IMG/VR virus record: IMGVR_UViG_3300044695_000792
Span: 1-32,468 of that record
Length of the DNA stretch: 32,468 nt
DNA from: a virus
Reading direction: 5' to 3' (one strand)
Position 1 is the first letter of the stretch, and every line of letters begins with the position of its first letter. Shown here piece after piece: positions 5,088 through 32,468 of this stretch. The notes beneath the pieces were generated by a model. It was not told the origin of the DNA and made no database searches. It saw only the letters and a program-made list of their open reading frames with translations. Both the position numbers and the translations under genes were made by a program.

Positions 5088-7757
5088 ATGGCAAATAAGG
5101 AAGCAGTATTCACGCTAAGAGTTAACACTGGTAATAGTGTTAAGGATGTGCAGAGCTTTGATGCTGCTGTGCAGAACTTGAATAAAGACATTCAAGAGGT
5201 GCAGCAAACTGCTTCCAGTGGCACTGGGATAGATTCCTTTGATGCTAGACTTCAAGAGCTTAATGCTAGAGTAGAGGCTGGAGGTCTGACTATGAGACAA
5301 ATGACTCAAGTCATGAAGGAATATCAGAACATAGCAGCTCAGGCTGGAATGGAATCTCCTATAGGCCAGCAAGCTATACAGAGTGCATCTCAATTAAAGG
5401 ATACAATAGGAGATCTCAAGGCAGCAACTACAGCTCTATCTTCTGACTTTGTAGGACTTGATACAGCACTAGCTGGAGTAGAAACAGGAGCAGCAGTATT
5501 CCAGGGATTTGAGAGTGCAGTGGCTTTGACTGGAGTAGAGAGTGAGGCACTCATGCAGACTATGGTCAAGCTACAAGCTGTACAGGGATTAGTTAATGCA
5601 GCTACTACAGTAGCAAATAAACTCAATACTGACTCAGTACTAGGAATAAAACTAAGATCCTTCTATGAGAAAGCATATTCTGTAGTAGTAGGAGAAAGTA
5701 CTGGAGCACTTAAAGGATTGAGAGTAGCTATGGCAGCTACAGGAATAGGAGCTCTAATCATTGGTATAGTGGCCTTGATAAGTAACTTCCAGAGCTTAAC
5801 TGATGCAATAGGACTGACAAGTGAATCTCAGAGAGCACTAGATGCCAGCATGGATGCATACGCTAAAGGAGCAGAGGAAGCTACTCAGAAAACTTCTGAG
5901 ATGGAAGCACAGTTCGCACTGGCTGAGAAAGGAGTGATTTCTAAGGAGGAAGCACTACAATTCTATAATGATACTCTAGGAGATTCATTAGGAGCTGCTA
6001 CATCTTTGAATGAAGCTGAGCAGATATATCTAGATAAGAAAGATGCATTCATAAAGTCTACAGCTGAGAGAGCTCAAGCTCAGGAATTATTCTCTTTAGC
6101 TGCTAAGGAAAGTGCAGAGGCCTTTAAGCAGAAGCTACAAGTAGAACAAGATGCTGGATTAGATTATTTTTCTAAACTAGTAGGTACAGCAGCAGATGTA
6201 GCTGAGTATGTGGCTACTGGGGATGAGGAATTCAATAGATCTGCTAAGGTAAGAAAAGCAGTGAATGAAGAGCTCACAGCAAACATAGAGGAAGGATCTA
6301 ATAAAAGAATAGCTGCATACCAGAAAGAGGGGCAGAGATTACTAGAATCAGCAACAAATAGAGAGAAAGATGCTGGAATAGCATCCCAATCTGAGACAGC
6401 TAAGAACATGGCAGCTGAAGCAGCGGAGAAAGCAGAGAAAGCTAGAGAGGAAGCAAGGAAAAAAAGAGAGAAAGCAGCTGAGGAACGTAGGAGAAAAGCA
6501 GAGAAAGCAGCAGAAGAGGCTAAAAGAGCAGCTGAAGAGGCAGCAAAAATAGAAAGAGACAGGCTTGCTAACTTATTAAAGCTTCAACAAGAGTATTTAT
6601 TACAGATACAGCAAACAGAAAGTGAGTATCAAGATAGTTTATTGAGTGCTCAAGAGCAAGAGACTAATGCAGTTCTAGATAAATATTTTGTATTGATACA
6701 AAGAGCTAAGGAATATGGACAGGATACTAAGATCCTGGAGCAAGCAAGGACAGCAGCACTCTTAGAAATCACTAAGAAATATAATGAGGAAGCTATAGCA
6801 GCACAAAAAGAAACAGATCAGACTAAAAAAGATCTACTTCAAGCTTATCAAGACATAGTCTCTGATGATCTAGATCAGCAAGTTCTAGACTTAGAGAGAT
6901 CTCAAGAGGATCAAGCTAAGGCACTAGCTGAAGGACTAGCAGCTGGAGTGATTACTCAAGAGCAGTACATGAATGCTCAGCTAGTATTAGAGAATGAATA
7001 CAATGCTAAGCTTCAGGAAGTAGTAGATGCTAGAAAAAAAATAGAAGAGGATGCAGATAAAGCTTTATTTGAGAGCAAAGTAGCTAGGGCAGAGAAAGCA
7101 ATAGAGATAACACAGGGAGCTCTTGATAGTTTATCAGCTATCAATGCAGCTATTAATCAAGCTCAAGAGAATCAGATAGCAGAAGCACAAGCTCAAGCAG
7201 AGGAGCAGAAGTCTATCTATGATAAACAGCAAGCAGAGGAGCTGGCCAATACTGCACTAACTGAGGAGCAGAGAAAAGCTATAGATGAGAAGTATAATAA
7301 GCTAAGATATCAAGCTGATCTCAAAGCATTCCAGGAAGAGGATAAGCTAAAGAAACAACAATTCGAGAGAGATAAGGCATTCAAGATAGCACAGATAGCT
7401 ATTGATACAGCCAGTGCTATAGTTAAATCAGTAGCTGCATCTCCTACTACATTCGGACTTCCTTTCTCAGCATTTGCACTAGCTACAGGAGTAGCACAAG
7501 CAGCAGCAGTAGCATCTACTCAGTATAAGAGTGCAGCTCCTCCTTCAATGGCTGGAGGAAGTGCTGGATCAATGACTGGAGCTGGAGCAAGTACATTCAC
7601 AGCAGCTAATACTAATACTCAGCAAACTAATCTAAGTGATGTGCTAGGACAGGGAGGAACTGGTCAGCCTGTAATGAATAAAGTATATGTATTAGAAAGT
7701 GATATCACTACTACTCAGAATAAGGTATCTGTCCAGGAGCAGCTGTCAACTTATTAA
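5088..7757 (+). CDS. Tail tape measure protein (889 aa)
   Basis: The protein sets tail length and is threaded inside the tail tube. Evidence is its size, an N-terminal coiled-coil region, a hydrophobic segment near residues 210-235 (AATGIGALIIGIVALISNF), a very long charged Ala/Glu/Lys coiled coil around 430-520, further Gln/Glu-rich helices to about 760, and a hydrophobic Gly/Ala-rich segment near 770-810. With about 0.15 nm per residue, 889 residues would fit a tail of roughly 130 nm. The C-terminal 47 bases overlap the end of the minus-strand gene. The call is secure in kind; cleavage products cannot be told. Confidence 0.88.
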   Translation: MANKEAVFTLRVNTGNSVKDVQSFDAAVQNLNKDIQEVQQTASSGTGIDSFDARLQELNARVEAGGLTMRQMTQVMKEYQNIAAQAGMESPIGQQAIQSASQLKDTIGDLKAATTALSSDFVGLDTALAGVETGAAVFQGFESAVALTGVESEALMQTMVKLQAVQGLVNAATTVANKLNTDSVLGIKLRSFYEKAYSVVVGESTGALKGLRVAMAATGIGALIIGIVALISNFQSLTDAIGLTSESQRALDASMDAYAKGAEEATQKTSEMEAQFALAEKGVISKEEALQFYNDTLGDSLGAATSLNEAEQIYLDKKDAFIKSTAERAQAQELFSLAAKESAEAFKQKLQVEQDAGLDYFSKLVGTAADVAEYVATGDEEFNRSAKVRKAVNEELTANIEEGSNKRIAAYQKEGQRLLESATNREKDAGIASQSETAKNMAAEAAEKAEKAREEARKKREKAAEERRRKAEKAAEEAKRAAEEAAKIERDRLANLLKLQQEYLLQIQQTESEYQDSLLSAQEQETNAVLDKYFVLIQRAKEYGQDTKILEQARTAALLEITKKYNEEAIAAQKETDQTKKDLLQAYQDIVSDDLDQQVLDLERSQEDQAKALAEGLAAGVITQEQYMNAQLVLENEYNAKLQEVVDARKKIEEDADKALFESKVARAEKAIEITQGALDSLSAINAAINQAQENQIAEAQAQAEEQKSIYDKQQAEELANTALTEEQRKAIDEKYNKLRYQADLKAFQEEDKLKKQQFERDKAFKIAQIAIDTASAIVKSVAASPTTFGLPFSAFALATGVAQAAAVASTQYKSAAPPSMAGGSAGSMTGAGASTFTAANTNTQQTNLSDVLGQGGTGQPVMNKVYVLESDITTTQNKVSVQEQLSTY

Positions 7758-8385
7758 GGAAGTTCATTCCAGTTTTAAGCTTGAATCCATCTCCTATAGA
7801 GAAGCAGCCGAAATCATTAAGGAATCTCTCTGCCATGTTTATCTTAGGATCATTCAGTTTTAAGTTAGTCCCTGGAATAGATGGAAGAGCATATACATTC
7901 CAGTATAGAGACTTTATAAAATGGTTATGATCTTTCCAGTCAATGCTATTGAATAACTCTATTAACATCTTAGAATTAAACATCATAGGCTGATGACATT
8001 CATAGTTATTAATAGGGAATTCATTGAATTGGAGAAAGCCTAGAGTATTCTGTGCAGCTTGCTGATAATGTGGAGCATGAGTGCTATTGACTTCAAGCTG
8101 TCCATTGAATATAGATCTTCCAGGATTAAAGTTTTGATTAATGAAAAAATCATCATTCATATAGATGAAATCTCCTCCGATCTCCTTAGCAAAGAGTAAG
8201 ATCTTATCTGTCACATCACAGCCTCTATGAGCTAATGACTTTTTATGCTTGATGCAATCAGCTTCAGTCACTCTATCTCCTATAGTAAAGATCTGAGCTT
8301 TAGGATCTGCTAGAAGCACTGACTTAATAGAGAGCTTGATATCCAGATCATGATTAGCTCTAATGTATGGATAGACATAAACCAT
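7711..8385 (-). CDS. Stealth-like sugar-phosphate transferase / glycosyltransferase (224 aa)
   Basis: This is the only minus-strand gene. The start (8385) is chosen because a promoter box lies just before it and the N-terminus then reads MVYVYPYIR, a typical first strand of a nucleotide-sugar enzyme, followed by LKLSIKS-like helix and AQIFTIGD. Residues 73-82 read FIYMNDDFFI, close to the YLNDDFFF core of Stealth CR2 proteins, which transfer sugar phosphates to capsule or surface glycans. CHQPM at 130-134 resembles the later Stealth CR3 His-Pro motif. It is shorter than bacterial Stealth enzymes (about 300 or more). It converges on the tape measure with 47 bp overlap and diverges from the protease. 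Glycan conversion of the host surface or of virions is inference. Confidence 0.65.
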   Translation of the reverse strand: MVYVYPYIRANHDLDIKLSIKSVLLADPKAQIFTIGDRVTEADCIKHKKSLAHRGCDVTDKILLFAKEIGGDFIYMNDDFFINQNFNPGRSIFNGQLEVNSTHAPHYQQAAQNTLGFLQFNEFPINNYECHQPMMFNSKMLIELFNSIDWKDHNHFIKSLYWNVYALPSIPGTNLKLNDPKINMAERFLNDFGCFSIGDGFKLKTGMNFLNKLTAAPGQIPYSE

Positions 8386-8389
8386 AGAA

Positions 8390-8397
8390 CAAATATA
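8390..8397 (-). promoter_or_regulatory. Bacteroidota-type -7 box for the minus-strand gene
   Basis: Read on the minus strand, this is TATATTTG, an exact TAnnTTTG match, ending five bases before the A of the ATG at 8385. Such boxes normally lie about 4-7 bases before the transcript start, so the mRNA may have almost no leader. I see no clear -33 TTG partner in the divergent protease start. Confidence 0.6.
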
Positions 8398-8410
8398 CAT
8401 AATATAACGT

Positions 8411-9634
8411 ATGATTAAGAATCTTCCTATATATGAGATTTCTATAGATCTCAATAATCCAGAGACTACTGTCTCTATGAATTCCATGGTATTAGATCCA
8501 GCTCATGAGCTAAGCTTCCAGCTGTTTAATAATCAGAAGAGATTTCACTTTAATAAAGTGGAGAATGTAATCACTGGAGTAGCAATATCAGCAGATACTC
8601 CTATCTATAGATATGATGATAGAAGCAGAGAGGAATACTATGTAGTATTCACTAAGCAAGCTATAAAGGATATCATATTTGACTATGCCAGGAGAGGCAA
8701 CTTCAATAATATGAATTTAGATCATTCATCTAAGAAAATACTGGATGATGCCTACATGATCCACAGCTATCAGATAGATGAGGAGAAAGGATTCACAGCT
8801 CCAGAGAGATTTAAGGATGCAAATGATGGAAGCTGGATAGTAAGCTACAAAGTTAGTGATGAGATCTTTGCTAAGGCTGAGGCTGGAGAGTGGACAGGCT
8901 TCTCAGTGGAAGGAGTATTCCAGCTAGAGGAAACAGATATGAGCATAGAGGATAAGATGTGGAGTGCTATATCTTTAGAGCTTAAGAAAGTACAGGACAG
9001 CCTTAAATTCTATAATGATTATCCAGATGCTGTTAGCAATAATGCTAAGAGAGGCATAGAATTAAATGAGAATAACGGGAATAAGTGTGCTACTCAGGTA
9101 GGCAAAGTAAGAGCTCAGCAGTTAGCACAGAAAGAGAATGTATCTCTAGAGACTATTAAAAGAATGTACAGCTATCTTTCAAGAGCTGAGGAGTACTATG
9201 ATGAGAATAATACTACAGCCTGTGGGACTATCTCCTATCTTCTGTGGGGAGGCCTTGCTGGTAAGAGATGGGCAGAGAGTAAACTCAAAGAGCTAGGAGA
9301 ATTAGAGGCTTCCAGTGATAAATTTGCTAAGGTCAGAGTAAGCTTTGACTATGATGATACACTAACTACTCCTAAAGGCCAGCAGATGGCTTCTAGATAC
9401 ATAGCAGCTGGAGATAATGTCTTCATAATTACAGCTAGACAGCAAACAAATGGAGCTCCAGTCTATGAGATGGCTAAGAGATTAGGTATTCCTAGAGAGA
9501 ATGTATACTTCACTGGAGGTAGAGACAAGTGGCAAACAGTAAAACGTCTCAGAATAGATAAGCATATAGACAATAATGCAGAGCAGATAGAGCTTATTAA
9601 AGAGAATACAGAAGCAGAGGCTATAAAATTTTAG
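8411..9634 (+). CDS. Prohead protease fused to a helical domain and a HAD phosphatase (407 aa)
   Basis: Three parts are visible. Residues about 55-170 resemble the XkdF/S78_2 prohead serine protease: a His in NLDHSS (H105), KGFTAPERF, and Ser in the core GFSVEG (S165). Residues about 200-295 (NNGNKCATQVGKVRAQQLA, ETIKRMYSYLSRAEEYY, CGTISYLLWGG) are a helical domain often attached to phage proteases or portals. Residues 308-407 are a HAD hydrolase: motif I D313-Y-D315-D-T317, T341 (IITAR), K373 and D387 (HIDNN), all catalytic positions filled. The protease would mature the capsid and scaffold encoded next. The HAD substrate is unknown. The gene starts 26 bp from the divergent minus-strand gene. 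Confidence 0.8.
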   Translation: MIKNLPIYEISIDLNNPETTVSMNSMVLDPAHELSFQLFNNQKRFHFNKVENVITGVAISADTPIYRYDDRSREEYYVVFTKQAIKDIIFDYARRGNFNNMNLDHSSKKILDDAYMIHSYQIDEEKGFTAPERFKDANDGSWIVSYKVSDEIFAKAEAGEWTGFSVEGVFQLEETDMSIEDKMWSAISLELKKVQDSLKFYNDYPDAVSNNAKRGIELNENNGNKCATQVGKVRAQQLAQKENVSLETIKRMYSYLSRAEEYYDENNTTACGTISYLLWGGLAGKRWAESKLKELGELEASSDKFAKVRVSFDYDDTLTTPKGQQMASRYIAAGDNVFIITARQQTNGAPVYEMAKRLGIPRENVYFTGGRDKWQTVKRLRIDKHIDNNAEQIELIKENTEAEAIKF

Positions 9635-11419: not shown

Positions 11420-11950
11420 ATGAGCTGTAATATGACCAGCGGATATAATGACAGAACTTGTACCAACGGCAAAGGGGGTATCAAATCTGTTCTATTATTT
11501 CCTTTAGGGAATGCTTCTGGAGTGACTATCTCTAATAATGAGATAACTGCTATCACTGTAAGTGGAGAAGTATTCTACTATAAATTAAAATCAAATCTAT
11601 CAAGCTATACTGCTCCAGTTCAAGTTAACAAGGACAACGGAACTTTGTGGTATAATCACAGCTTGAGCATGATCTTAGCTTCTGATACAAAAGAATTAAG
11701 ATCAGAAATCCATCTGCTAGCACAGAATGAAGTTATTTGTTTTGTAGAGAAAGCAAATGGTACATGGGTAGCTTTAGGACTTGAGGAAGGTCTACAAGTT
11801 GCTGATGCTAATGAGTACACTTCAGGAGTGCTTAAGTCTGATCGTCAAGGTCATGTCATAGTATTGAATGGAATGGAAAATAATGAGGTGCCAGATGTAG
11901 CTGATGGAATCATCACTACGCTATTGACACAGCAATCTCCAGCAGTTTAA
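11420..11950 (+). CDS. Probable major tail (tube) protein (176 aa)
   Basis: A compact beta-rich protein with a Cys-containing start (MSCNMTSGYNDRTCTNGKGGIKSVLLFPLG) and mixed strands through to DRQGHVIVLNGM and a C-terminal helix (ADGIITTLLTQQ). It sits alone between two strong terminators directly after the major capsid gene, and like that gene it uses CGT and other less common codons, both signs of a high-copy virion protein. The most abundant protein besides capsid in a siphovirus is the tail tube subunit, hence the call. A decoration or head-associated protein is the main alternative. Confidence 0.55.
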   Translation: MSCNMTSGYNDRTCTNGKGGIKSVLLFPLGNASGVTISNNEITAITVSGEVFYYKLKSNLSSYTAPVQVNKDNGTLWYNHSLSMILASDTKELRSEIHLLAQNEVICFVEKANGTWVALGLEEGLQVADANEYTSGVLKSDRQGHVIVLNGMENNEVPDVADGIITTLLTQQSPAV

Positions 11951-11970: not shown

Positions 11971-12005
11971 AAAGGGGAGGGAAGTATATCCCTTCCTTTT
12001 TTTTT
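11971..12005 (+). terminator. Intrinsic terminator after the tail-tube candidate
   Basis: Left arm 11971-11982 (aaaggggaggga) pairs over 12 positions, including two G-U pairs, with 11989-12000; the loop is agtata and the T tract runs on to 12005. It is 20 bases after the stop codon. The next ATG (12019) follows within 14 bases, so downstream genes again depend on readthrough. Confidence 0.85.
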
Positions 12006-23577: not shown

Positions 23578-23585
23578 TATATTTG
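23578..23585 (+). promoter_or_regulatory. Bacteroidota-type -7 box before the recombination genes
   Basis: TATATTTG, exact TAnnTTTG match, lies just after the nuclease stop and 21 bases before the ERF ATG at 23607, giving a short A-rich leader. A TTG at 23563-23565 is too close (12 bases) to be an ideal -33 element, so strength is uncertain. Confidence 0.6.
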
Positions 23586-23606
23586 TAAAACCTTAAATAA
23601 ATAAAT

Positions 23607-27103: not shown

Positions 27104-27177
27104 TGATCTGGATCTGGGCAGCTATTCTAGTGATTAATGTCATATTCTGGATAGGAATGATTAAAATATTCTCATGA
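27100..27177 (+). CDS. Micro membrane peptide (25 aa)
   Basis: ATG 27100 overlaps the previous stop (ATGA) and its own stop overlaps the glycosyltransferase ATG at 27174 (ATGA). The peptide is almost one single hydrophobic helix (MIWIWAAILVINVIFWIGMIKIF). The same frame is open back to an ATG at 27001, giving a 58-residue protein with an acidic N-terminal helix, but that needs a 103-base overlap. It may anchor or accompany the sugar enzymes that follow at the membrane; that is inference. Confidence 0.5.
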   Translation: MMIWIWAAILVINVIFWIGMIKIFS

Positions 27178-27890
27178 AGATAATAGCTCCAATACCAGTT
27201 TTTGGAAGACATGAGCTAGTAAAGCTAACAGCTTCCAGGCTACAGCTTCAAGGGATAACTCCTGTGCTTATAGGCCATGAGCCAGAGACTAAAGAGATAG
27301 CTAAGGACTTGAATATAGAATTCTGCTTAGCATCTAATAATCCTCTAGGTCATAAGTGGAATGTAGGATTCCAGGCTGCTAAGTTCTATGATCCAGATGC
27401 AGTGATCTTTATGGGATCTTCTGACTGGTGCTCACAGGAGTATATTGATATAGTCAAGCAGAATCTAAACTTTTCAATGATAGGAATGCTAGGATGTCAC
27501 TTTGTAGATGTAGCTGATCAGATCAGACTAGTACACTGGGATGGATACAAGGATAAGCTCAGAATGAATGAGCCTATAGGAATAGGAAGAGTACTATCAA
27601 GAGAGCTCATTAAAAAAATGAACTGGACTCCTTTTGAGAATGTACTTAACTCTGGACTGGACTGGTCTATGTATCAGAAGGTGCTGAGACTAAGAGAGAA
27701 GATAGCTGTCATTCCTAATGATCCTATGAATGTGAGGCTGATGAGTATCAGTACTAACAAGTGGATAAACAAACATAAGTTCCTGGATCACTGGAGTGGA
27801 TCTCTAAAGAGCCAGAAGATAGAAGATCTCTCAATACTTAATACTCACTTCTCAGATATACATATACTCCATGAAACGCTTAACAAATAA
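27174..27890 (+). CDS. Glycosyltransferase, GT-A/GT2-like (238 aa)
   Basis: The start reads KIIAPIPVFGRHELVKLTASRLQLQGITPVLIG, the usual first strand and helix of a GT-A fold. Residues 70-90 have PDAVIFMGSSDWCS, where SSDW likely takes the place of the DxD metal motif, and NPLGHKWNVGFQAAK before it is like the nucleotide-sugar pocket of family 2 enzymes. It probably moves a sugar from an NDP-sugar onto a glycan or protein. It is first of three linked sugar/small-molecule genes. Acceptor unknown: host surface polymer, virion protein or DNA are all possible. Confidence 0.7.
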   Translation: MKIIAPIPVFGRHELVKLTASRLQLQGITPVLIGHEPETKEIAKDLNIEFCLASNNPLGHKWNVGFQAAKFYDPDAVIFMGSSDWCSQEYIDIVKQNLNFSMIGMLGCHFVDVADQIRLVHWDGYKDKLRMNEPIGIGRVLSRELIKKMNWTPFENVLNSGLDWSMYQKVLRLREKIAVIPNDPMNVRLMSISTNKWINKHKFLDHWSGSLKSQKIEDLSILNTHFSDIHILHETLNK

Positions 27891-28413
27891 ACCTAATACA
27901 AATACAGCTACATTCTGGAATGACTACTATGCTTCAATAGATAGAGAAGAGGATAGACTTATCATTTATGAGCAACTGGAAGAGATACTCCAGAATATAC
28001 AATTCAAGACAGTACTAGAGATCGGATGTGGGACTGGAATAGGAGCTCAGTATCTGAAGGAATGCTTTCCAGAGATCATATACACTGGATCAGACTTCTC
28101 ACTAATGGCACTAGACAAAGCTGCAAACTATGTAGATCATGTGAAGCTCCTGGATATAAGATATGAAGATCCTTCAGATTATTATGATGTAATTATCATA
28201 GCTGAAACCTTAGAACATCTGGAGAATCCATATGAGATCATAGATAGATGTTTATACTACTGTAATTATCTAGTGATATCACTTCCATTAGATGAGCCTG
28301 AGGAATGTGATCCAGAGCATATCTGGTGCAATATCACTCCAGAGGATTTCACTCAATATGATGTAATATACACTAAGCTTAATACAAGCTATTTTCAAAT
28401 TATACTAAAATGA
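27871..28413 (+). CDS. SAM-dependent methyltransferase, class I (180 aa)
   Basis: Motif I is VLEIGCGTGIGAQYL (residues 48-62), followed by YTGSDFS (acid residue for ribose binding) and DVIIIAETLEHLENP (motif III-like, 106-120), all standard for small class I methyltransferases of the Methyltransf_11/23 type. DNA methylase motifs (NPPY, DPPY) are absent, so the target is more likely a sugar or other small group. It overlaps the glycosyltransferase by 20 bases and the amidotransferase by ATGA, indicating one functional unit. Confidence 0.78.
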   Translation: MKRLTNKPNTNTATFWNDYYASIDREEDRLIIYEQLEEILQNIQFKTVLEIGCGTGIGAQYLKECFPEIIYTGSDFSLMALDKAANYVDHVKLLDIRYEDPSDYYDVIIIAETLEHLENPYEIIDRCLYYCNYLVISLPLDEPEECDPEHIWCNITPEDFTQYDVIYTKLNTSYFQIILK

Positions 28414-29477
28414 ATGAATGTAATAGATGCCTATTCACTAGCGAGATAGCTAAGATAGGAGATACTCAATGTGAATACTGTGATCTGCATGATGAGCTGG
28501 AGAGACAGTCTAATCCACAGGATCTAAACAAAGTACTAAACAAGATCAGAAAAGCTGGAGCTAAACAGAAGTATGACTGCATAATGGGGATATCTGGAGG
28601 AATAGACTCCAGCACGCTTCTCTATGCAGCTGTCACTAAGTGGAATCTAAGGCCTTTAGTGATTCACTTTGATAATAACTGGAATGCTCCAGAAGCTCTG
28701 AGTAACATGACAAACCTAGTGACTAGATTAGGAGTAGACTGTATTGTATACATGGTTAATAAGACAGAATATGATCTGCTTAATGATTCATTCCTGGCAG
28801 CTGGCATTCCAGATGCTGATATCCCTAATGATATAGCCATGACTAAGCTCATGTATGATACAGCTCATAAGTATGGAATCAAATACATTCTGAATGGTCA
28901 TGACTTTAGGACTGAAGGATCTACTCCAAAAGGATGGACCTACATGGATGCTAAATATATCCAGTCAGTATACAAAGCTCACTCTGGCTTAAGACTTAAG
29001 AATTATCCTCTATTCACTTTTAAAGATCAGCTATTCTATGCCTGGAAAGGTATTAAGAATGTCAGACCTTTTCACTATGGACTTAATAGAGAAGTACTGG
29101 ATCAAGAGATGAAGTCATTCATAAACTGGAAAGATTATGGAGGTAAGCACTGTGAGAATGTTTACACTGAATTCGTAGGAAGCTATCTGCTGCCTCAGAA
29201 GTTCAAGATAGATAAGAGAATAGTATACTTATCAGCTCAAGTGAGATCTGGCAAGCTATCAAAACAGGAAGCTAGAGATATATTCAGTATTCCTTCCACA
29301 TTCGATACTGAGAAACTAGGAACAGATAAACATAGAATATTAAAGCTTATAGATTCCAGGATACAGTCTAGAGATAACTTTGAGAAGTACAACTTTAAAA
29401 AGTACAGGATGCTGATCTGGATACTAGCTAAGCTCAAAGTAGTGCCTTATACATTCTATATTAAATACTGTAAGTGA
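28410..29477 (+). CDS. N-acetyl sugar amidotransferase-like PP-loop enzyme (355 aa)
   Basis: Resembles the WbpG/PseA family, which convert a sugar acetamido group to an acetamidino group with ATP and ammonia. A zinc site is built by C4, C7, C21 and C24; the PP-loop is SGGIDSS (62-68). Further motifs: PLVIHFDNNWN, GIKYILNGHD and KDYGGKHCENVYTEFV. Length fits the family (about 340-390). Bacterial versions work with HisH/HisF-like ammonia suppliers, none of which is here, so ammonia must come from the host or free pool. With the GT and methyltransferase it points to synthesis of an unusual decorated sugar. Confidence 0.78.
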   Translation: MNECNRCLFTSEIAKIGDTQCEYCDLHDELERQSNPQDLNKVLNKIRKAGAKQKYDCIMGISGGIDSSTLLYAAVTKWNLRPLVIHFDNNWNAPEALSNMTNLVTRLGVDCIVYMVNKTEYDLLNDSFLAAGIPDADIPNDIAMTKLMYDTAHKYGIKYILNGHDFRTEGSTPKGWTYMDAKYIQSVYKAHSGLRLKNYPLFTFKDQLFYAWKGIKNVRPFHYGLNREVLDQEMKSFINWKDYGGKHCENVYTEFVGSYLLPQKFKIDKRIVYLSAQVRSGKLSKQEARDIFSIPSTFDTEKLGTDKHRILKLIDSRIQSRDNFEKYNFKKYRMLIWILAKLKVVPYTFYIKYCK

Positions 29478-30154: not shown

Positions 30155-31357
30155 ATGAGTACTATAAAAGGATATAAGCCACATGATAATCAGAGATTAA
30201 TCCATGATTCAATTAATCATGGAGAATATAAGTACTATGCTCTCAATATTGGTAGGCAGTTCGGCAAAACTATGCTAGGCATTAATCAGATGCTGTACTG
30301 GGCAATCAATGATAAAGGATGTAATATAGCCTGGATCACTCCAGTATACAAGCAGAGTAAAAAAGTCTTTGATGAGATGGAGAAAGTCACTAGAGGAAGT
30401 GGCCTATTTGAATTCCATAAGTCAGATCTCTGGATCAAGGGCTTTGGATCTACTATCACATTCTTCTCTGGAGAGAAGCCAGATAATATCAGAGGGAATA
30501 CATTTGACTATCTCATAGTGGATGAGATGGCCTTCACCAGATCAGAGCTCTGGGATGAGGTTCTATCTGCTACAGTATTAGTCAAAGGAAAGAAAGTGAT
30601 CTTCATATCTACTCCTAAAGGAAGGAATCACTTCCACAGAATCTGTATGCAGCATAACTATGACAAGAGATATAAGTACTTTCACTTCACCAGCTTTGAG
30701 AATCCTCTGATAGATCATCAAGATCTAGAGGAGAGAAAGAGATCCCTTCCAGATCATATCTTCAGACAGGAGTATCTAGCTGAGTTTATTGATAATGCAT
30801 CTGGCATCTTTAGGAACGTGAGAGACTGCATAGGCAAAGGAGAGAAAACTGCTAAGATGTATGGAGGTCTAGATATAGGTAGAGCTGATGATTACACTGT
30901 GCTCACTATCTTGAATGACAAAGGAGAGCAAGTTGCTGTCAATAGATGGAGACATGAGGAATGGTCCAGGATCATTGATAAGGTAGCTGATGAGATAAGG
31001 AAGTGGAATGCTCTCACATTGGTAGAGGTGAATAATCAAGGAGATGTATTCTATGAGATGCTCCAGCATAAGTGCAGAAATCTAGTAGAGCCATTTGTCA
31101 CCAGCTCCAGTAGTAAGCCTGTGCTGATAGAAGATCTAGCTGTGAGCTTTGAACAGAAGGAGATCAAGGTACTGGATGAGACCTGGCTACTTGATGAGCT
31201 CGAAGCTTTTACTTATATTTATAACGTCAATACTAGATCAGTGAAGTACTCTGCTCCAGATGGGATGCATGATGATGGAGTGATCAGCACAGCTCTAGCA
31301 TGGCACTGTAGGAAGCACTATAGCAGAAGAGGTCAATATAAAATACTAAGAGCATAA
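30155..31357 (+). CDS. terL: Terminase large subunit (400 aa)
   Basis: The packaging motor and nuclease. ATPase: Walker A variant GRQFGKT (33-39), Walker B YLIVDEMAF (about 118-126) and FISTPKGR coupling motif. Nuclease: GLDIGRADDYTVL (about 237), EVNNQGDVFYEML and C-terminal HDDGVISTALAWH (about 372-384), the RNase H-like acidic triad. Length is a little short compared with many (420-600), as is usual for Bacteroidota phages. ATG comes immediately after the T tract of a hairpin, with no Shine-Dalgarno. Confidence 0.93.
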   Translation: MSTIKGYKPHDNQRLIHDSINHGEYKYYALNIGRQFGKTMLGINQMLYWAINDKGCNIAWITPVYKQSKKVFDEMEKVTRGSGLFEFHKSDLWIKGFGSTITFFSGEKPDNIRGNTFDYLIVDEMAFTRSELWDEVLSATVLVKGKKVIFISTPKGRNHFHRICMQHNYDKRYKYFHFTSFENPLIDHQDLEERKRSLPDHIFRQEYLAEFIDNASGIFRNVRDCIGKGEKTAKMYGGLDIGRADDYTVLTILNDKGEQVAVNRWRHEEWSRIIDKVADEIRKWNALTLVEVNNQGDVFYEMLQHKCRNLVEPFVTSSSSKPVLIEDLAVSFEQKEIKVLDETWLLDELEAFTYIYNVNTRSVKYSAPDGMHDDGVISTALAWHCRKHYSRRGQYKILRA

Positions 31358-31358
31358 G

Positions 31359-32048
31359 ATGAATATATCAGTACCTAGAACAATAAAGGAATGTAGGCCA
31401 GATCAGCTTGTCAAGTGGCTACATATAGCTCCATTTATACAGGAGAGAAAAGATGATCTTAATAATCTGCTGGACTTCCAGGTGCAGCTTATCAGCATCT
31501 TCAGTGATCTACCAATGAATAAAGTAAGGAAAGGTCATATAGATGATGTTCTCAAGATCTCAGCTCACTTGATTACTATGCTCAGTGAATTCAGATCAGC
31601 AGAGCCTACAGGAAGGATAGAAATAGATGGGAAGGTATATGTATTTCAGAAGGACTTCGCACTGATCAGCACAGGCCAGATAGTAGATCTCAAGCTCATT
31701 GAGAATGTACATGAATCTCCACATGAAGCACTGGCTATCCTGTACATAGAGGAAGGTATGGAATACTGCCAGGAGGATGATAGAGGAAGAGTGCTTAATC
31801 CCAATGCTAAGAGAGCTGAGCTATTTAAGAGCTCCTTTCCTGGGGATGAGTTTCTGAATGTGTTCGGTTTTTTTTTGCACAGCTCAAGACAGCGGAAGCT
31901 CGCTATGTTAGGAATACAGATGATGAGGATGGAGATACAGAAGAGGAAAATAGAGAAGAGTCTATCTCAGACAGTGAGTGGTTCAGCTGGACAAAGATCA
32001 TCATCAACCTGGCTAAAGAACTTAATAAGCAAGTGGAAGATATCTTAA
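31359..32048 (+). CDS. Chaperone-like protein, zero-frame product (229 aa)
   Basis: The first 172 residues are a well-formed protein (IKECRPDQLVKWLHIAPF, DDVLKISAHLITMLSEF, IEIDGKVYVFQKDF, ALAILYIEEGMEYCQEDDRGRVLNPNAKR, PGDEFLNVFGFF). At codon 172 the gene meets nine T. Beyond it the zero frame gives a Met/Lys/Ser-rich, poorly ordered 57-residue end, whereas the -1 frame gives a better protein without its own start. This looks like a frameshifted tail-assembly chaperone pair (as lambda G/GT), although it lies after terminase and about 5 kb before the tape measure. Family identity is not certain. Confidence 0.6.
   Translation: MNISVPRTIKECRPDQLVKWLHIAPFIQERKDDLNNLLDFQVQLISIFSDLPMNKVRKGHIDDVLKISAHLITMLSEFRSAEPTGRIEIDGKVYVFQKDFALISTGQIVDLKLIENVHESPHEALAILYIEEGMEYCQEDDRGRVLNPNAKRAELFKSSFPGDEFLNVFGFFLHSSRQRKLAMLGIQMMRMEIQKRKIEKSLSQTVSGSAGQRSSSTWLKNLISKWKIS
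31868..31877 (+). promoter_or_regulatory. Candidate -1 ribosomal slippery site
   Basis: Nine T (31868-31876) then G, read in zero frame as GGT TTT TTT TTG. It offers T-TTT-TTT and T-TTT-TTG heptamers for a -1 slip. A weak hairpin agcg/cgct (31891-31904) lies 13 bases downstream. An indel in the homopolymer is the main alternative. Confidence 0.6.
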
Positions 32049-32134
32049 AGCAGCCTTATGTTAAGACTATGTGGTGGATGAATTTCTTTAAGCTAAGAAC
32101 AGAACAGGAATACATAAATAGAAAGCATGGCTGA
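31877..32134 (+). CDS. -1 frame extension of the chaperone-like gene (85 codons)
   Basis: The -1 frame is open from 31850 to its stop at 32132-32134 and has no ATG until near its end, so it must be reached by a frameshift. It encodes AQLKTAEARYVRN, a very acidic linker (TDDEDGDTEEENREESISDSE) and a helical Trp-rich domain (FSWTKIIINLAKELNKQVEDILK, MWWMNFFKLRTEQEYINRK). The fused product would have about 258 residues. Its stop overlaps the next gene's start (32127) by eight bases, the tight junction usual here, while the zero-frame stop would leave a gap of 78 bases. Confidence 0.65.
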   Translation, partial: AQLKTAEARYVRNTDDEDGDTEEENREESISDSEWFSWTKIIINLAKELNKQVEDILKQPYVKTMWWMNFFKLRTEQEYINRKHG

Positions 32135-32468
32135 TCTTGATTTTTTAGATACATTGGGCTTCAGTGAATCTGAGCTGCAACAGCCAGAGAGTGCTTATGA
32201 GAAGCTTATTCTCTCAATAGCTAATCAAGTCACTCAGGACTTTAAGACATATATCCAGAATAATGCATCTAATACTGGAGCACTAGCACAGTCAGTAGTT
32301 TACTTTCCTACTGGAGCTATGAGCTTTGAGATCCAGGCAGATGATTACTATAAATTCCAGGATGAAGGAGTGAGCTCTATAGATGGAGCTAAGTTCAATA
32401 CTCCTTATTCATTCAGACTTCCATATGTAACTAAGAGTCATGCTATAGCTTTGCAGAAGTGGAAGGGA
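32127..32468 (+). CDS. HK97 gp10-like neck/tail-completion protein, 5' part
   Basis: Start of the gene continued at 1-449. The N-terminus reads ADLDFLDTLGFSESELQQPESAYEKLILSIANQV, then the part shared with the left end. It runs off the window after 114 codons. The ATG is overlapped by the end of the -1 frame product. In this copy residue 47 is Ala, Val in the left copy. Confidence 0.65.
   Translation, partial: MADLDFLDTLGFSESELQQPESAYEKLILSIANQVTQDFKTYIQNNASNTGALAQSVVYFPTGAMSFEIQADDYYKFQDEGVSSIDGAKFNTPYSFRLPYVTKSHAIALQKWKG
32206..32468. repeat. Imperfect terminal redundancy, right copy
   Basis: Partner of bases 1-263 (254 of 263 identical, no gaps). Position 32205+n corresponds to position n. 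Implies a unit length of about 32,205 bp. Confidence 0.85.

Follow-up and report, generated by a model that had tools for sequence, protein, structure and literature searches.

Two-form tail chaperones produced by ribosomal -1 frameshifting are a textbook case of recoding. The lambda-type chaperone binds the tape measure protein and the tail-tube protein and is absent from the virion. Its gene normally lies between those of the major tail protein and the tape measure, directly before the latter. A stimulatory RNA structure downstream of the shift site is common, but not universal, in ribosomal -1 frameshifting. A run of nine As or Ts has the length of efficient transcriptional slippage, and in many bacteria such runs are selected against, being avoided in coding sequence (PMC1088944; PMC5009743). 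In the open papers searched, accounts of transcriptional slippage concerned dnaX, type III secretion genes, IS elements and RNA viruses, and none linked it to a phage tail chaperone.

The locus compared here with these systems lies in a window of 32,468 nucleotides, which is the whole of IMG/VR virus record IMGVR_UViG_3300044695_000792. The gene directly after its terminase carries a run of nine Ts (T9). We regard it as nearly certain that this run serves a programmed shift into the -1 frame, whichever the mechanism.

Gene layout in the window

The features of the locus were as follows.

30155-31357, + strand: terminase large subunit (TerL; phrog_2, 7.5e-45; Terminase_6N)
31359-32134, + strand: T9-containing gene, with one base between it and the terminase upstream
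31359-32048, + strand: zero-frame ORF of 229 aa, with an N-domain (aa 1-172) and a basic helical extension past the run; predicted short, G-like product (from homologues, protein alignment and AlphaFold model)
31854-31945, + strand: raised synonymous-site conservation, with dual coding clearest at 31901-31928
31868-31876, + strand: T9, the predicted slip site (GGT TTT TTT TTG, then the -1 frame; from the window sequence and homologues)
31874-32134, + strand: -1 frame part, F plus 85 aa plus TGA; expected fusion product of ~258 aa (from alignment and remote homology to -1 ORFs of the P12024S clade)
31916-31972, + strand: acidic linker of the -1 part, read from the translation; variable in the -1-part alignment
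31973-32131, + strand: Trp-rich helical C-domain in the -1 frame (SEWFSWT...QPYVKTMWWMN...), conserved in the -1-part alignment
32127-32468, + strand: next gene, overlapped by the -1 stop; runs on at 3-449 across the terminal repeat
5088-7757, + strand: tape measure protein, the expected client (phrog_3336, 3.3e-8)

The first-pass annotation had described a T9-G run and, after it, a -1 frame of 85 codons that has no usable start and ends eight bases into the next gene. This was borne out, with the run at 31868-31876, as were the 78-base gap that the layout would otherwise leave and the place after the terminase. The TGA of the -1 frame (32132-32134) overlaps the ATG of the next gene (32127) by 8 bases. 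Between the upstream stop of the -1 frame, 27 nt before the run end, and 60 nt after the run, no ATG, GTG or TTG was present in that frame in 196 of the 197 loci collected below. The zero frame had been followed as good protein to codon 172; it was missed that the frame stays open for 57 codons beyond the run, to 32048 in the window ORF translation, and that this part is constrained. The continuation past the run is 57-73 codons long.

The tape measure had been placed about 5 kb beyond the gene. The distance does exceed 5 kb, with several genes between, and the tape measure comes downstream of the gene only when the two contig ends are joined. These ends (1-263 and 32206-32468) repeat each other directly over 263 bp, with 9 mismatches. 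The contig is either circular or terminally redundant, and its ends reflect strain variation. The order terL, T9 gene, next gene, 395-aa gene and 788-aa gene was seen on single contigs of relatives.

Three further observations were made in the window. The only other T9 (11997-12005) is the T tract of a hairpin resembling an intrinsic terminator (GGGAAGTATATCCCTTCC, then T9), after the ORF at 11420-11950. A minus-strand ORF of 258 aa (7711-8487), without a Pfam match, lies between the tape measure and a protease-like gene in a genome that is otherwise one-directional. Upstream of the terminase, 27174-29477 holds three genes, namely one without a Pfam match, a methyltransferase and one with a weak NAD-synthase-like match, which may be a sugar or surface-modification set.

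Conservation of the run in two clades

The upstream domain had 250-300 relatives in IMG/VR, and a search of the annotated phage collection found none at an E threshold of 0.01. The scans gave 197 loci, including some contigs fetched more than once, which corresponded to 70 distinct upstream proteins. Thirty-eight representatives were defined as fused proteins below 95% identity to each other. The alignment of homologues that the first-pass annotation had proposed as a check gave a uniform result: exactly T9 and the -1 ORF were present in every window-clade relative that reached the site (38 non-redundant, down to ~52% identity). An automatic T6 call in locus L176 was rejected, as it marked an earlier run and the true site is T9; locus L163 stops short of the site.

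The synonymous third-position Ts of both TTT codons and of the preceding codon, which is GGT, GCT or AGT, were invariant. Elsewhere in these genes, TTT accounts for 40% of Phe codons, and GGT, GCT and AGT for 19-29% of theirs. The 38 representative loci (230 kb) contained 40 runs of at least nine Ts, 38 of which were the slip site, and no run of at least nine As. Thus, the recurrence of T9 at this site is far beyond chance.

A remote clade was reached through structure. Separate models were made of the zero-frame product and the -1 domain, and the AlphaFold model of the former matched a protein of Nonlabens (Persicivirga) phage P12024S among viral proteins (E 9.5e-7, TM 0.67 on the target). 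In P12024S, gene 38 lies directly after TerL and carries T9 at 23578-23586, and its -1 frame stays open for 80 codons, ending where annotated gene 39 ends. Gene 39 (L199, 23663-23830) has an annotation of its own but corresponds to the C-terminal portion of the gene 38 -1 ORF. The two genes correspond to phrog_32199 and phrog_38404, which are separate PHROGs families of 'unknown function'.

Scanning with the P12024S terminase returned 80 loci. Those long enough to judge, 75 when P12024S is counted, all had T9 (69) or T10 (6) in a gene after the terminase, and the -1 ORF spanned 79-89 codons where its end was on the contig. In the six loci without the site, the contigs end too early. Four apparent exceptions (L242, L251, L271 and L282) were rejected, since the gene sits further downstream there, with T9 or T10. 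By hhalign, the N-domains of the window and P12024S clades aligned with Prob 98.2 (E 3.5e-14, 156 columns) and the C-domains with Prob 75 (E 2.6e-5, 55 columns), with the Trp motif aligned; the W..W motif of the C-domain was common to both clades in the profile comparison. Pfam, PHROGs, NCBIfam and PDB-sequence searches with the remote clade gave strong scores for phrog_32199 and phrog_38404 only. By parsimony, no substitution was placed in the nine run positions on either clade tree (38 window-clade and 58 P12024S-clade representatives).

Flavobacterium phage 6H (L200 10048-10927, minus strand) was a weak fold relative. No T run was present at the comparable place, where an unannotated possible -1 ORF lacks a clear slip site. 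This locus may represent a different type of recoding, or the gene may be unrelated.

Homopolymers are hypermutable when long, and they are also error-prone. A sequencing or assembly error, or a decayed gene, would fit the second property. However, the same T9 recurs across independent metagenomes and in P12024S and P12024L, which were sequenced from isolates, and both frames are under selection; so this explanation is refuted by the homologues and its chance is negligible. A contingency locus would fit the first property as well as the length of T9: slipped-strand replication would turn T9 into T8 or T10 and switch the fusion on and off by phase variation. Against it, no fused on-state variant was found, all complete window-clade loci have T9, and in the six T10 loci of the P12024S clade the second ORF still lies in the -1 frame. 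Such phase variation is highly improbable.

Constraint on both frames after the run

Synonymous-site conservation, the second check that had been proposed, was raised at 31854-31945: it climbed from ~0.46 to 0.75-0.88 at the run and ~25 codons beyond. The frames were separated by their silent changes. Counted from the first T, offsets 33-57 had 47.5 changes silent in frame 0 only, compared to 11 in the -1 frame only, at near-equal opportunity (P about 6e-6). One zero-frame Arg was retained through CGG or AGG codons, with Ala, Glu, Gln or Ser as the overlapping -1 residue, and zero-frame L173, R179, A182 and Q187 were invariant in the window-clade alignment. The zero-frame motif at 31901-31928 reads L..S..R..AILGIQ..R. 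The P12024S clade exhibited the same excess in one bin (offsets 24-39, rate 8.3 vs 3.7), and it was absent from the other bins.

Openness of the zero frame alone was weak evidence, with a mean P of 0.09 per sequence under synonymous shuffling. The real evidence for dual selection is the frame-specific substitution pattern, not the open length. In the AlphaFold model of the zero-frame product (pLDDT 79), a helix at 162-206 crosses the slip site. The silent-change excess, the invariant residues and this single helix together suggest that the tail of the short product is probably genuine, with ~15-18 of its codons constrained in both frames. Beyond these codons, the zero-frame tail is open and displayed no clear selection. 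The conserved run, the -1 ORF without a start and the dual coding after the run are supported at the level of sequence.

Mechanism and role of the two products

The run was compared between the clades by codon phase. Both share two Phe codons (T6), lengthened by different flanking Ts in each lineage, always to 9-10. Written as Ts before, within and after the Phe pair, the run is 1+6+2 in the window clade and 2+6+1 in most of the P12024S clade. The form 3+6+0 was found in L244/L256/L263 and, apart from them, in L271, and the T10 groups (L248/L249/L278, L262 and L242/L251) are 2+6+2. In the P12024S clade, the codon after the Phe pair encodes W, Y, C, S, L or F, with only the first T in common, and Val (GTN) after the pair goes with TTT before it. 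Thus, a run length of 9-10 was kept over three codon phases while the phase and the amino acids changed, although the flanking Ts may partly be kept for the encoded amino acids.

A classical ribosomal -1 frameshift, as in lambda G/GT, would occur on T_TTT_TTT (or T_TTT_TTG) within T9 and give the same two products. Tail chaperones are, as a rule, made by such shifting (PMC5009743), and the T_TTT_TTT heptamer was present in every phase in both clades. However, this heptamer requires only T7, and the two surplus Ts, which differ by phase, persist in each of the three phases, supplied by different codons. Nor was a stimulatory nested RNA structure found downstream in either clade (mean z -0.5 to 0.2; alifold 0.0), and within 20 nt upstream of the window run there was no purine-rich stretch resembling a Shine-Dalgarno sequence. 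A GCG/CGC hairpin noticed by eye after the window run was rejected because it is broken in several relatives.

Since the length was kept and the phase was not, and no RNA structure was found, slippage by RNA polymerase is favoured over a codon-phased ribosomal heptamer. We hold polymerase slippage to be fairly likely from these sequence patterns, and a ribosomal shift to be rather unlikely. The programmed -1 shift of the first-pass annotation is thus strongly supported by conservation, and it is probably not of the classical ribosomal kind, as the phase is not kept and RNA structure was not found.

In the preferred explanation, one start would give two proteins. Most mRNA would be copied faithfully and yield the 229-aa form, composed of the N-domain and the basic helical tail. 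At T9, RNA polymerase would slip while making some of the transcripts, so that one U is gained or two are lost. Ordinary translation of the slipped mRNA would enter the -1 frame and produce the ~258-aa form, with the same N-domain, the acidic linker and the Trp-rich helical domain. The N-domain would bind the tape-measure protein, and the Trp-rich domain of the minor form would recruit tail-tube subunits. We infer the transcriptional slip, the product ratio and the chaperone role as parts of the best explanation.

The chaperone reading follows from the two-form organisation known from lambda and HK97, the tape measure in the genome, and the finding of no second frameshift gene adjoining the tape measure in the window genome. 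On this organisation, a tail-assembly chaperone role like that of lambda G/GT is probable. The gene shares with the lambda type a conserved shift site into a start-less -1 ORF, and it does not have that type's position between the major tail protein and the tape measure, directly before the latter.

The fusion had been called chaperone-like at first reading. Its layout makes this plausible, while hhalign detected no homology to lambda G/T or HK97 gp13. The proposed profile searches did not identify the domains either: neither of the two from the window had a significant hit in Pfam or PHROGs. Compared with PDB folds, neither part was matched convincingly. The C-domain in the -1 frame, whose model was weak (pLDDT 66; helices 35-49 and 61-85), also matched no viral fold. 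A structural match to the HK97 chaperone 2ob9 by VIA-align was weak and within noise (Z 2.5, 66 residues, rmsd 3.9), and the 'tail protein' family phrog_166 was matched weakly (E 3e-4).

The place beside the terminase also suggests a protein made in two forms by slippage that acts as another assembly factor, for example in packaging or head-tail joining. The gene follows TerL in both clades, the tape measure is more than 5 kb away, and the hhalign comparison detected no known chaperone. On the other side stand the weak matches to the HK97 chaperone structure and phrog_166; moreover, to our knowledge no terminase-associated protein has a G/GT-like layout. Another assembly factor of this kind is unlikely.

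For a tail-assembly chaperone formed by polymerase slippage, with both parts taken together, our confidence is evenly balanced. More tentatively, a large clade of aquatic phages, nearly all uncultured and probably infecting Bacteroidota, would use RNA-polymerase slippage at the conserved T9, not ribosomal frameshifting, to set the ratio of its two chaperone forms, each form with a selected C-terminus and 15-18 post-run codons dual-coded. If true, a clade that reaches the two-form design via the polymerase would show that selection keeps the product ratio and not the route, and phrog_32199 and phrog_38404 would be explained as halves of one recoded gene. A T9/T10 run in the gene after the terminase would serve as a simple annotation rule for many environmental phage genomes. 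The isolates P12024S and P12024L make the recoding hypothesis testable.

Among the closest known systems are genes 38 and 39 of P12024S, which are homologous to this gene and share its position, T9 and the -1 ORF. They differ in that they are annotated as two hypothetical genes, T9 is in another codon phase, and the zero-frame tail is 24 codons. Lambda gpG/gpGT and HK97 gp13/13-14 are alike in making a short and a longer -1 product from a common start, with a start-less second ORF and a tape measure protein in the genome. Unlike in those phages, the run here is T9/T10 in any codon phase instead of a phased heptamer, no sequence homology is detectable, the zero frame runs on for 57-73 codons with dual coding, and the gene comes after TerL, not directly before the tape measure. 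Transcriptional slippage at A9/T9 in Thermus dnaX, Shigella mxiE/spa13 and IS elements resembles the present case in the run of nine with preserved length, in needing no RNA structure, and in giving at least two products per gene. In contrast to those systems, the run described here belongs to a conserved phage gene, probably for tail assembly.
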